Shown here: piece by piece, positions 54,026-58,378 of the stretch
How the letters are laid out: each line of letters begins with the position of its first letter
How positions within the stretch are numbered: the first letter of the stretch is position 1
Source of the DNA: Salinisphaera sp.
GTDB lineage: Bacteria > Pseudomonadota > Gammaproteobacteria > Nevskiales > Salinisphaeraceae
Direction of reading: 5' to 3'
Length of the DNA stretch: 64,000 bases
NCBI GenBank assembly: GCA_027858915.1
Contig: JAQIBT010000120.1
Location: 62,001 to 126,000, forward strand
Program-made: the position numbers and the translations under genes
Notes under the pieces: model-generated
What the model was told of the DNA's origin: nothing
Databases searched by the model: none
The model's input: only the letters and a program-made list of their open reading frames with translations

Positions 54026-54844
54026 ATGTCCGCGACTTCTTCTCATATTGACACAGATCACCCGCTGCTCGGCAGAGTCGGCCTATGGTTGAAAGCGCTG
54101 CGTTTCGCGGGCGTTTTGTTATTGGGCACCGTACTTCTGCCGGTGGTACCCCTGCTTGGCCAGCGCAGCAAGCATCTGGTCAACTGGTGGCTGGGACGCA
54201 TGCTCAACGCGCTGCATATCCGCCTGGATATCGATGGCACACCGCCATCGGGGGCAGCTCTGGTGGTCTCCAATCATTGTTCCTGGCTGGATATTCTCGT
54301 ACTTGGGCGCGTATTCAATACCGCGTTCGTGTCCAAGGCCGAAATCGGTGGCTGGCCGCTGGTCGGATCGTTTGCGCGTGCCGGTGGCACCGTATTCATT
54401 CATCGCGGCTCTGGCAAGACCGGCGAGACCAGTGCGCAGATACGGGCCAATCTGGATGCCGGACGCTCGGTCCTCTTCTTCCCGGAAGGCACAACGACGT
54501 CGGACCCCAATCCAAGACATTTCCACGCCCGCCTGTTCGCGGCGGCCATCGACGGCGACCACCCCGTATTGCCGGTGAGCCTGCGTTACTGCGACGCCAC
54601 CACCCCACCGGGCATGCACCACGCCTTGGCGCCGTGGGTCAACGAGGCTGCCCTCTGGCCGCATTTCCGCGATCTGTTCAAGCTGCGCGAGATGCACGCC
54701 GAGATTCGGATCTGTGCCCTGCTGGATCCGCGGGGCTACGACCGCCGCAGCCTGGCCGAAGCCAGCCGCAACGCCGTGGCACATCGCCAAGCCGTAGCCG
54801 CCAGCCGTCCACGTGCGGTTATTCAGCCAGCGTCCGCGGAATAA
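54026..54844 (+). CDS. plsC: 1-acyl-glycerol-3-phosphate acyltransferase (PlsC family)
   Basis: A 272-residue membrane-associated acyltransferase for phospholipid or ornithine-lipid synthesis. The N-terminus has a hydrophobic helix; the catalytic NHCSWLD (HX4D) motif, the FVSKAEIGGWPLVGSFARAG block and FPEGTTTSDP are all present. ATG 54026 is chosen over TTG 54017. The last 26 bases overlap the converging hydrolase gene. The exact acceptor lipid is not determined. Confidence 0.88.
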   Translation: MSATSSHIDTDHPLLGRVGLWLKALRFAGVLLLGTVLLPVVPLLGQRSKHLVNWWLGRMLNALHIRLDIDGTPPSGAALVVSNHCSWLDILVLGRVFNTAFVSKAEIGGWPLVGSFARAGGTVFIHRGSGKTGETSAQIRANLDAGRSVLFFPEGTTTSDPNPRHFHARLFAAAIDGDHPVLPVSLRYCDATTPPGMHHALAPWVNEAALWPHFRDLFKLREMHAEIRICALLDPRGYDRRSLAEASRNAVAHRQAVAASRPRAVIQPASAE

Positions 54845-55802
54845 GCGCGCCGTCCGGCGGCAGATTGCGGGCTGCAAAATAATCCTGGCCGTCGGTGCCG
54901 TCGTAACGGCGCTCATTGATAAAACGCTTGATCACCGCGGCACTCTCATTGGCTCGGATCAGCAGAAACAGATGGCCGCCACCGCGAACCACGTGCAGAT
55001 AGGATTTCGGGATCAACCAGTAAAGCAGTCGGATATTGACCAGCGGCGTCACCGGGTCGTCGTCGCCGCCCATGATCAAGGTAGGACAACGCAGGCCGTG
55101 CAGCCGATGCACACTCGTCCAGGCAATCCCACTCAGTAGTTGGTTGATATAGCCACGGGTGCTGGGGCCGATGGCTTCCTCGCCGCGACGTTCGATCAGC
55201 TCAGGGCGTTGCCTCATCAGGCCACCGTATAGGGCAGGAACTCGCTCGATCAGGGTATCGCGACGCCGGTAGCGCCGCGCGGTCTGCAATCGGCGCCACG
55301 GGCTGTGGCGTCCTGGCATGGACGCGATACCGGTCGAGGTTGCCGCCAGCACGAGCCGATTGACGCGCTGTGGATAATCCAGCGCGAACTGCTGCGCCAA
55401 CAGACCGCCCCAGGCCATACCCGTGACGTTGATTGGTTCATCGTAGCCAAGACGATCCAGCATCGTGACGATCAGCCATGCATGCCACTTGAAGCCCCGG
55501 GGAATGGACAGCGACGGTGAATGGCCGGCACCGGGCACATCAAGCGTAATCAATTCGATGCCGTCCAGCGCATTGACCAGCGGCAGCAGCATATCCATAT
55601 TGCCACCGATGGTATTGAGCAACAGCATCGGTCGCCCGCGCCCGCGACGTAAGCCATAACGTATTCGAACGCCGTCCACGTCGAGCCAGTCGATCTGCAT
55701 CCGCAGACGACGACCCAGCACCGACACAGCGGCCGGCAAGCGCCGCTTGGCGGGGCGGGATTCAAGTGAGGCTATGCTTGGATTGGCCATGTCGTCAGGC
55801 AT
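54819..55802 (-). CDS. PhaZ-like alpha/beta hydrolase lacking the catalytic serine (B)
   Basis: A 327-residue alpha/beta-hydrolase most like the intracellular medium-chain PHA depolymerase PhaZ (LLLNTIGGNMDMLLPLVNAL, ITLDVPGAGHS, LVLAATSTG). The nucleophile elbow reads GMAWGG: Ala130 (codon GCC) stands where PhaZ has Ser. The Asp (GGDDDP, about D248) and His (GGGH, H276) of the triad are retained. It is the third gene of the minus-strand run phaC - hydrolase A - hydrolase B. Hydrolysis looks impossible by the usual mechanism; binding of polymer or oligomer, or regulation, are alternatives. Confidence 0.85.
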   Translation of the reverse strand: MPDDMANPSIASLESRPAKRRLPAAVSVLGRRLRMQIDWLDVDGVRIRYGLRRGRGRPMLLLNTIGGNMDMLLPLVNALDGIELITLDVPGAGHSPSLSIPRGFKWHAWLIVTMLDRLGYDEPINVTGMAWGGLLAQQFALDYPQRVNRLVLAATSTGIASMPGRHSPWRRLQTARRYRRRDTLIERVPALYGGLMRQRPELIERRGEEAIGPSTRGYINQLLSGIAWTSVHRLHGLRCPTLIMGGDDDPVTPLVNIRLLYWLIPKSYLHVVRGGGHLFLLIRANESAAVIKRFINERRYDGTDGQDYFAARNLPPDGALIPRTLAE

Positions 55803-55856
55803 CTGCGTTTAGACTGCTGCGCGCCGCGCCGGATCCGGCATGTCCAATGTAAGGCG

Positions 55857-56699
55857 TCATCGTTGTTCGATATCCGGTTCAACCAGGAGTCGTCCCGAGG
55901 CGAGAAACTCCTCAATACGACGCGCGGCTTCGTCAGTACGCTCGAGCAACAACCAGTGTCCCGCTCCGCGCATCACTGACAAGGTGGATCGCGGGATCAG
56001 AAGCGAAAGCACGCGGGCATTCACCATCGGCACGATCGGGTCGTCATCGCCAGCCAGAATCAGCGTCGGCACGGACAATCGATGCAGCCAGGCCAGACTC
56101 GTGGCGCCTGACAGGGCATAGATCTGTGCGCCGTAGCCGCGTCGCGTCGGCGTGCCGGCTCGTTTTAATGCCTCGACAATATCAGAACACTCATCGATTC
56201 GGCGTCCGCCGAACAGCTCGCGTGCGTCGCGGCCGTCGACGGCAAGCGTAGACAAGCCGCGCGGCAGCGCCAGTCGGCGCAGACTGCTCACGCGCCCGGG
56301 GAACATCAGCGGCCCGGCCGAGGTAGCAATTAGCACAAGCCGCCGTACACGAGCGCCATAGTCGCGAACATAGCGCTGCGCCAGCAGCCCACCCCAGCCA
56401 ATGCCCATCAGATCGATTTCGGGGTAGTCGAACTCGCCGATCAGCTGTTCGAGCAGTCTCGCCAGCGCTGGCATGCGGCGCATGCGCCCGACGTCGTCCG
56501 AGCCGCCGATTCCCGGCATGTCGAAACACAGCGTCGGCGGCGTCAACGCCGTGCAAACACCCGCCAGAACATCCAGATTGGCGAGGAAATTATTGCAGAT
56601 CACCAGCGGCCTGCCCTGGCCTTCGGTGACCGCCACCTGCAAACATTCGCCATCGACCACGACCCGATACAGCGCGGCTTTCTCAGCGCTGGCGGACAT
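55857..56699 (-). CDS. PhaZ-like alpha/beta hydrolase lacking the catalytic serine (A)
   Basis: A 280-residue PhaZ-like protein, close to the usual depolymerase length of 283. The expected nucleophile is Gly101 in GIGWGG (codon GGC), while the acidic residues (LAGDDDP, about D220) and H248 (GAGHW) sit at the depolymerase positions. It is a paralogue of the gene at 54819-55802, from which it is 54 bases away. ATG 56699 overlaps the phaC end by 17 bases; ATG 56744 is possible but lies deeper inside phaC and gives an atypical N-terminus. Confidence 0.85.
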   Translation of the reverse strand: MSASAEKAALYRVVVDGECLQVAVTEGQGRPLVICNNFLANLDVLAGVCTALTPPTLCFDMPGIGGSDDVGRMRRMPALARLLEQLIGEFDYPEIDLMGIGWGGLLAQRYVRDYGARVRRLVLIATSAGPLMFPGRVSSLRRLALPRGLSTLAVDGRDARELFGGRRIDECSDIVEALKRAGTPTRRGYGAQIYALSGATSLAWLHRLSVPTLILAGDDDPIVPMVNARVLSLLIPRSTLSVMRGAGHWLLLERTDEAARRIEEFLASGRLLVEPDIEQR

Positions 56700-58371
56700 A
56701 GCGCCCGGGGGCTGCCTCGATTGGTTCAAAATCGTCGTTGCCATAAGAGTCAGGCGCCACCCGCGTGTCGCCGCCGTGCGCCTGACTCCAGCGCACCCAG
56801 GCTGGCCACCACGAATCGTCCTGCTGTTTGGCTGCTTTGCGCCATGCCTCAGGGGTCAACGCATAATCGTCGTGAATGAAGAATCGCGCGTGGCCACTGC
56901 CAGGCGGGCAGACGATTGACTGTACGTGTCCGGCACCTCCCAGCACGAAACGCGTATTGGCGCGAAACATCTGCATGGAGCGAAAACAGGATTGCCAGGG
57001 CGTGATGTGATCGCGTTCGCCTGCGACCACGAACACGTCGCGATCGATCTTCGACAGATCGATCGGGACGTCATCAACCGTCAATCCCCCGTCTTCGTGC
57101 AAGGCGTTATCGCGATAGATCGCCAGCAGATCAGCGTGCAGCCGGGCCGGCAGCCGCGTGGTATCGCTATTCCAGTACAGCACGTCGAAAGCGGGCGGCT
57201 CGCGGCCAAGCACGTAGTTATTGGTCACGAAATGCCAGATCAGGTCATCGGGCCGAAGCCAGGCGAAAGCTCTTGCCATATCGGCGCCGTCCAGCACGCC
57301 GGCAGTACTTGAACGAGCCAGCGCAGCTCGGATCGCGGCTCGGTCGGCGGATCGGTCGGCGCTGTCGGCACGCGGCGATTCCAGCATGGTCACAAACAAC
57401 GACAGGCAGGCGATGCGTTCCTGCTGACCGCGGGCGGCGAGCACGGCGAGGGCGAGAGTTGCGGTCAGACCGCCAGCACAGGCGCCCATCAGCTTGACCG
57501 GCGCCCCTGCACCGACGGCCTGCACCACCTCGATCGCTTCGATGACTGCCTGTACGTATTCTGCCAGCCCCCAGCCTCGCTGAGCGGCCGTCGGATTGCG
57601 CCACGACAGGCTAAAAAACTGCTGCCCCGCATCGAGCGCATGCCGGATGAAACTCTTATCCGGCGATAGATCGACCACGTAGTACTTATTAATCTGTGGC
57701 GGCACGAACAGCACCGGTCGGCCGTCTACCTGCGGGGTGCGCGGGCTGTACTGAATCAGCTCGCAGATCTCGTTGCGAAATATCACCGCGCCCTCGGTCG
57801 CCGCGATATTGCGTCCCAGGCGAAACGCGGTGGTATCGACCTGGCGCGGCAGACCGTGGTTGTAGCGCAGGTCTTCGGCGATATGACGCAGCCCAGTCAC
57901 GACCGAAAGCCCACGGCTGGTCACGGCGTTTCGGTAGAATTCAGGGTGGGTCACAAACAGGTTGCTGGGCGCACCCGCAGCTATCAGATGTCGGGCAGCA
58001 AACAACAATCGCCGGCGGCGACCGGCCGACAGCTGCAGCGAGTCAAGCAACTCGAGCAGTGCCTGCGACCAGGCCAGATAGCCCTGTAGGACGCGCCGGA
58101 ACAACGGATTTGTCTGCCAGGCTTCATGTTCAAAACGACGATCATCCGGATCGGGCGCCAGCTGCGACCAGCCCAGCGCAATACGCGCCATTTCAATCGC
58201 CAGCCCGGCCTCCACACGCGCCAGGATGATCGGATGACTCAGAAATACACCGACAAGCTCACGCGAACCTGCACGCATATCGGACCAGCGGCTGTCGATG
58301 GCCGGATAAGCGCCGCTCAGGTCCCGTTCGACACGCAGGCGCGTAAACGGCTCGGCTCGGCTCGCATTCAT
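56683..58371 (-). CDS. phaC: Poly(3-hydroxyalkanoate) synthase, class II-like
   Basis: Polymerises hydroxyacyl-CoA into intracellular polyester granules. The 562 residues match class II PhaC. The lipase-like box is GACAGG with Cys298, and the general-base/acid residues are Asp454 with His455 (AGERDHITPW) and His482 (GGAGHVQS), near the known positions of Pseudomonas PhaC1. The typical PPQINKYYVVDLSPDKSFI block is intact, so this enzyme should be active. ATG 58371 is preferred; GTG 58377 is two codons upstream. Two PhaZ-like genes follow in the same direction. Confidence 0.93.
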   Translation of the reverse strand: MNASRAEPFTRLRVERDLSGAYPAIDSRWSDMRAGSRELVGVFLSHPIILARVEAGLAIEMARIALGWSQLAPDPDDRRFEHEAWQTNPLFRRVLQGYLAWSQALLELLDSLQLSAGRRRRLLFAARHLIAAGAPSNLFVTHPEFYRNAVTSRGLSVVTGLRHIAEDLRYNHGLPRQVDTTAFRLGRNIAATEGAVIFRNEICELIQYSPRTPQVDGRPVLFVPPQINKYYVVDLSPDKSFIRHALDAGQQFFSLSWRNPTAAQRGWGLAEYVQAVIEAIEVVQAVGAGAPVKLMGACAGGLTATLALAVLAARGQQERIACLSLFVTMLESPRADSADRSADRAAIRAALARSSTAGVLDGADMARAFAWLRPDDLIWHFVTNNYVLGREPPAFDVLYWNSDTTRLPARLHADLLAIYRDNALHEDGGLTVDDVPIDLSKIDRDVFVVAGERDHITPWQSCFRSMQMFRANTRFVLGGAGHVQSIVCPPGSGHARFFIHDDYALTPEAWRKAAKQQDDSWWPAWVRWSQAHGGDTRVAPDSYGNDDFEPIEAAPGRYVRQR

Positions 58372-58378
58372 GGGCACG

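Follow-up and report, generated by a model that had tools for sequence, protein, structure and literature searches.

The intracellular PHA depolymerases (PhaZ) are the closest described relatives of the two proteins analysed here. The mcl-PHA depolymerase PhaZ of P. putida has an alpha/beta fold with a lid and the catalytic residues Ser102, Asp221 and His248, and its activity is abolished by deletion of the FNGIG segment (34-38) or by mutation of Asn35 (PMC12504323). Reuse of the hydrolase fold for binding after the loss of catalytic residues is documented in the NDRG family and in the neuroligins (PMC7022630). In the literature searched, which is part of the whole, we found no natural Ser-less PhaZ and nothing relevant on Salinisphaera PHA or on inactive PhaZ. 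We have analysed a 64,000-nucleotide stretch of DNA from Salinisphaera sp. (assembly GCA_027858915.1, contig JAQIBT010000120.1, positions 62,001 to 126,000), hereafter the window, which encodes two tandem PhaZ-like proteins, named A and B, both lacking the nucleophilic Ser.

The phaC-B-A locus

The genes are encoded on the minus strand in the order phaC, B and A, with plsC convergent to them, and their features in the window are as follows:

56683..58377, minus strand: phaC, PHA synthase, class II-like, first in the cluster (TIGR01839, 594.8 bits; PhaC_N PF07167)
55857..56744, minus strand: B, PhaZ-like protein and candidate pseudo-depolymerase, 295 aa (TIGR02240, E 1.6e-49)
56386..56403, minus strand: B nucleophile elbow, GGCATTGGCTGGGGTGGG, GIGWGG (from residue numbers 114-119, approximate to a codon)
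54819..55802, minus strand: A, PhaZ orthologue with Ser replaced by Ala in the window, 327 aa (TIGR02240, E 3.1e-66)
55411..55428, minus strand: A nucleophile elbow, GGTATGGCCTGGGGCGGT, GMAWGG (from residue numbers 125-131, approximate to a codon)
54822..54917 (approximate), minus strand: A C-terminal tail, FINERRYDGTDGQDYFAARNLPPDGALIPRTLAE, beginning with NERRYDGTDGQDY, invariant in the Salinisphaeraceae A proteins

An in-frame ATG at about 56699, the end coordinate used in the preliminary description, is an alternative start for B, and the start chosen decides whether B overlaps the end of phaC by 17 bases or by 62. We searched 85 genomes of the order and then read the loci. The phaC-B-A arrangement occurs in 13 Salinisphaera genomes, counting that of the window, and in G069, a genome from a sister genus, which makes 14 loci with complete synteny in the 13 relatives; the flanking argG, rnt, plsC and yihY genes keep the same order wherever contig and genus permit. 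Named relatives in the survey include S. halophila, S. orenii, S. shabanensis and S. hydrothermalis. A record titled Endozoicomonas sp. G2_2 (NZ_JAGHQU010000004.1) carries a Salinisphaera locus at 70% identity that groups inside the genus, and the name on this record is probably wrong. In one further Salinisphaera genome, 85% complete (G078), phaC, A and B are all missing together, possibly by loss of PHA storage as one unit; a weak Phasin_2 match is still present in that genome.

In other members of the order phaC also directly precedes phaZ, most of the PhaZ examined adjoining a phaC, which indicates that the linkage is ancestral and that B holds the ancestral phaZ slot.

Family assignment and structure of A and B

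The best NCBIfam match of both proteins was TIGR02240 (PHA_depoly_arom), at 3e-66 for A and 2e-49 for B, with scores of 223.6 and 168.8 bits that both lie below the curated cut-off of 250.6; the Ser-bearing A orthologue of G080 scored 276.7 bits, above this cut-off. A Pfam scan of A and B returned Abhydrolase families only, with neither Phasin nor Phasin_2. Modelled with AlphaFold2 (pLDDT 80, pTM 0.82), B showed an alpha/beta hydrolase fold with a less certain lid, and the top Foldseek match of the model was the B. thuringiensis PhaZ (8ynv/8ynw, E 6.5e-18, TM about 0.7). The model of A was weak (pLDDT 65) and was left out of the interpretation. The C-terminal tail of A (NERRYDGTD..DY) is common to all A proteins, Ser-bearing or Ser-less, and absent from other PhaZ; it matched nothing in Pfam or the PDB, and a search of the genome turned up no further copy. 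That the Ser-less A proteins still carry it suggests a role for the tail other than cutting.

Loss of the nucleophile and conservation of the Asp-His pair

The preliminary description had reported that both hydrolases lack the Ser of the GxSxG elbow normal for PhaZ-type depolymerases and keep the Asp and His of the triad, and all of this was confirmed. The elbow of A reads G128-M-A130-W-G-G, with GCC as the Ala codon, and that of B reads G114-I-G116-W-G-G, with GGC as the Gly codon; Asp249 and His277 in A and Asp235 and His263 in B stand at the catalytic positions, and these two residues do not vary in A, in B or in any PhaZ aligned. Outside the family, PhaZ-type proteins carried the Ser in 48 of 48 cases sampled order-, class- and phylum-wide (44 in one alignment and four more). 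Within the family, all 14 B proteins (13 Salinisphaera and the sister genus) have Gly in place of the nucleophile. A has Ser in nine loci (G084, G083, G075, G074, G076, G080, G072, G081 and G069), where it resembles an ordinary PhaZ, and lacks it in five, with Ala in the window and G082 and Gly in G073, G079 and G077. Set against the 48 outside proteins, these absences show that the replacement is not chance variation. A Ser in close relatives, which the preliminary description regarded as evidence against its reading, is thus found for A (9/14) and not for B (0/14).

We considered whether the Ala codon of the window A could be a base-calling or assembly error, with TCC read as GCC: the two codons differ by one base, TCC is that of most relatives, and the species is represented by one assembly. 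This explanation is very improbable, for G082 (Salinisphaera sp. Q1T1-3) has the same GCC by an independent change, three more species carry Gly at this position, and it could not account for B.

The 52 Ser-bearing PhaZ share 23 invariant positions, of which the window A keeps 22, with only the Ser changed, the A of G082 keeps 20, those of G073 and G077 keep 18, and the B proteins keep 16-20. The changes in B cluster at the nucleophile and at the oxyanion loop. This loop is near-universally NGIGAN in the Ser-type PhaZ and becomes N/S/G-[D/E]-[F/Y] in B, and the residue following the Asn35 position, Gly in Ser-type PhaZ, is acidic (Asp or Glu) in 13 of the 14 B proteins and Asn in the window B. 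In the window the loop reads NTIGGN in A, with the Asn kept, and NNFLAN in B. Taken with the P. putida PhaZ mutants, the altered loop leads us to expect no PhaZ-like hydrolysis from B.

A different chemistry was weighed as the main alternative for B, and perhaps for the Ser-less A, in which the Asp-His dyad would activate water or abstract a proton, with participation of the acidic residue of the former oxyanion loop and with space for water or a ligand where the Gly stands. Some alpha/beta hydrolases are known to work with a His-Asp base and to skip the covalent Ser step, the Asp and His are invariant in 14/14 B proteins and in all Ser-less A, and an acidic loop residue occupies in 13 of the 14 B proteins the place of the Gly of Ser-type PhaZ. 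That residue is nevertheless Asn in the window B, the Asp and His loops could be retained for folding, and neither a substrate nor a relative with this chemistry came to light, so that we consider an enzyme of this kind unlikely. The invariant dyad exceeds what a pure scaffold needs, which fits residual or altered catalysis, and together with the new acidic residue it gives scope for altered chemistry.

A Cys in the lid of B (DEC motif) was also tried as a new nucleophile and rejected, being present in nearly all Salinisphaera B and absent from the sister-genus B.

Origin and number of the losses

In the family tree, B forms one clade (support 100) on a long branch, with the PhaZ of the order's other families next to it (support 92); the A proteins form a clade apart, which excludes a recent tandem duplication. 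The Ser of B was lost once, before the split of Salinisphaera and the sister genus. For A, the trees of the flanking genes, of the flanking genes with phaC and of A itself all place the window before the Ser-bearing pair G072 and G081, and in the same three trees this pair is sister to the Ser-less clade of G082 with G073, G079 and G077 (supports 97-100). By parsimony, two losses in A cost the same number of steps as one loss and a regain in G072 and G081; the regain of a working Ser is less likely than two losses, and most simply the sequences would imply one loss in the window species and one in the four-species clade. The phaC tree places the window elsewhere, and that placement also needs two losses in A. 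Two independent losses had been proposed for the tandem pair in the preliminary description; they are indeed separate in the two genes, but they are not equivalent, the loss in B being fixed family-wide and A keeping its Ser in most loci.

Selection after the loss

Selection was estimated with a GY94-type codon model (F3x4, fixed species topology) written for this analysis. The overall omega was 0.073 for A, 0.136 for B and 0.088 for phaC. On the A branches strictly after the loss, within G073, G079 and G077, omega was 0.070 compared to 0.074 elsewhere (p = 0.77), and on the branches of the same three species in B it was 0.134 compared to 0.137 elsewhere; omega = 1 was rejected for the after-loss branches with an LRT above 200. 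Pairwise estimates agree with the model, with an A dN/dS of 0.07-0.08 for the close Ser-less pair G073 and G079; dS is saturated for deeper pairs, whose pairwise values were not relied on. Since omega after the loss matches that of the rest, the loss of the Ser is not decay.

Decay of both genes as pseudogenes would accord with a nucleophile lost in both and with a B that evolves about twice as fast as A. The frames are nonetheless open in 14/14 loci and omega after the loss is 0.07-0.15, far from the value near 1 that the preliminary description had named as the mark of pseudogenes. These estimates reject decay for B and for the A of G073, G079 and G077, and leave it next to no probability for the pair as a whole. 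The earlier preference for a selected role without a Ser nucleophile over random decay is borne out by this strong purifying selection. The nucleophile lost, the fold kept and purifying selection after the loss are features expected of an alpha/beta-hydrolase pseudoenzyme.

In a wider Ser-less set, the omega of A was 0.10 compared to 0.063 (p = 0.0035), and that of phaC was also higher in the same species (0.113 compared to 0.079), so the rise is not specific to A. The terminal branch of the window A had an omega of 0.13 against 0.07 elsewhere (p = 0.09), distinct from 1 at p = 7e-4; as this branch spans the time before and after the loss, the window A taken alone is not proven to have been constrained since it lost its Ser. 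An A at an early stage of loss in the window species, where PHA would no longer be mobilised via PhaZ and the Ser-to-Ala change would be recent or mildly constrained, agrees with this higher omega and with the single difference, the Ser itself, from the 52 Ser-type PhaZ at their 23 invariant positions. We hold it to be improbable, for the omega of this branch is still far below 1, the other Ser-less clade was constrained long after its loss, and the tail and fold are kept.

The rest of the PHA system

An apparently intact class II synthase had been described ahead of the pair. The Cys of the GACAGG motif, the Asp and the His are present in the window PhaC and all three are conserved in 14/14 loci, the Cys being residue 300 from the GTG start and 298 from an ATG two codons later; class II is only the best-matching synthase class, its 594.8 bits lying below the cut-off of 855.4, and the class I match reached 488.8 bits for a cut-off of 622.65. 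A Phasin_2 match was found in every Salinisphaera genome searched, above the cut-off in 13/14, and PF05597 was absent. Because of the Phasin_2 matches B is rejected as a stand-in for a missing phasin, and there is no gap among the phasins for the phasin-like role first proposed for A and B to fill.

The Phasin_2 protein of the window genome is unlinked to the cluster (locus L110, contig C162:10500-13500, match C162:11766-12047) and ends in a long C-terminal tail rich in Lys, Ala, Ser and Thr that resembles the histone-like tail of PhaF. Its gene adjoins a fadJ-like gene, and the same neighbourhood is seen in G083 (locus L111).

A TIGR02240 search of the window genome found no Ser-type PhaZ and nothing above the cut-off, and a search for a substitute depolymerase across the genus with TIGR01849, NF050089 and TIGR01840 gave weak matches only, none above the cut-off. 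The inventory of the window species is then a synthase, a phasin, two Ser-less PhaZ and no recognised depolymerase.

Proposed role of B and of the Ser-less A

We favour, at a probability of roughly 55%, that B is a pseudo-depolymerase which selection has maintained in the phaC-B-A cluster as an accessory without hydrolytic activity, and that in some species A is also Ser-less and binding-only. B would be a PhaZ copy that lost its Ser before the split of the genera and was then retained by selection, keeping the PhaZ fold, the lid and the substrate pocket, and from its altered elbow and loop we infer that it does not hydrolyse PHA. It may sit on the PHA granule, or bind 3-hydroxyacyl ends or neighbouring enzymes, and would thereby modulate the active PhaZ (A), PhaC or both. 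In most species A would serve as the catalytic PhaZ. The Ser-less A of the window species and of the clade formed by G082, G073, G079 and G077 may have taken on a role like that of B, so that a working synthase would stand next to two proteins that only bind; A hydrolysis cannot be the regulatory target of B in these species, since A is Ser-less there. A broader view, which we advance tentatively, is that an ancient pseudo-depolymerase is standard in the Salinisphaeraceae PHA cluster as a regulator or granule receptor alongside PhaZ, and that some species converted the remaining PhaZ to the same non-cutting state, two Ser-less depolymerase folds then managing PHA there in the absence of any recognised depolymerase.

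Should B prove to be a regulator or receptor, PHA storage would acquire a class of control proteins derived from the very enzyme that degrades the polymer, and the A orthologues with and without Ser offer a natural series for testing this. The species without a Ser-type PhaZ raise the question of how, or whether, the stored carbon is recovered.

Comparison with known systems

Phasins (Phasin_2, PhaF/PhaI) are non-catalytic granule proteins, but A and B share no sequence or fold relation with them, and a separate Phasin_2 gene is present in each genome searched. NDRG and neuroligins are eukaryotic and functionally unrelated to PHA storage, and in NDRG3 the whole triad is lost and the pocket blocked, whereas the Asp and His are invariant in A and B. 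Among proteins of known structure, the PHB depolymerase PhaZ of B. thuringiensis (8ynv, wild type) gave the best fold match of the B model, and its S102A form (8ynw) is a laboratory analogue of the natural change; this PhaZ is, however, a Ser-bearing scl-PHA enzyme with 17% identity. The nearest likeness is with the intracellular PhaZ: A and B share with the P. putida enzyme the alpha/beta fold with a lid and the Asp and His, and with intracellular PhaZ in general the gene position directly behind phaC and the best family match, TIGR02240. The A of G080 is about 50% identical to the PhaZ of a family, probably that of Pseudomonas, in which the genes run phaC-phaZ-phaC. In contrast to these PhaZ, both window proteins are without the Ser, B has an altered oxyanion loop and A carries an extra conserved C-terminal tail; A and B are a new variant within the known PhaZ family.
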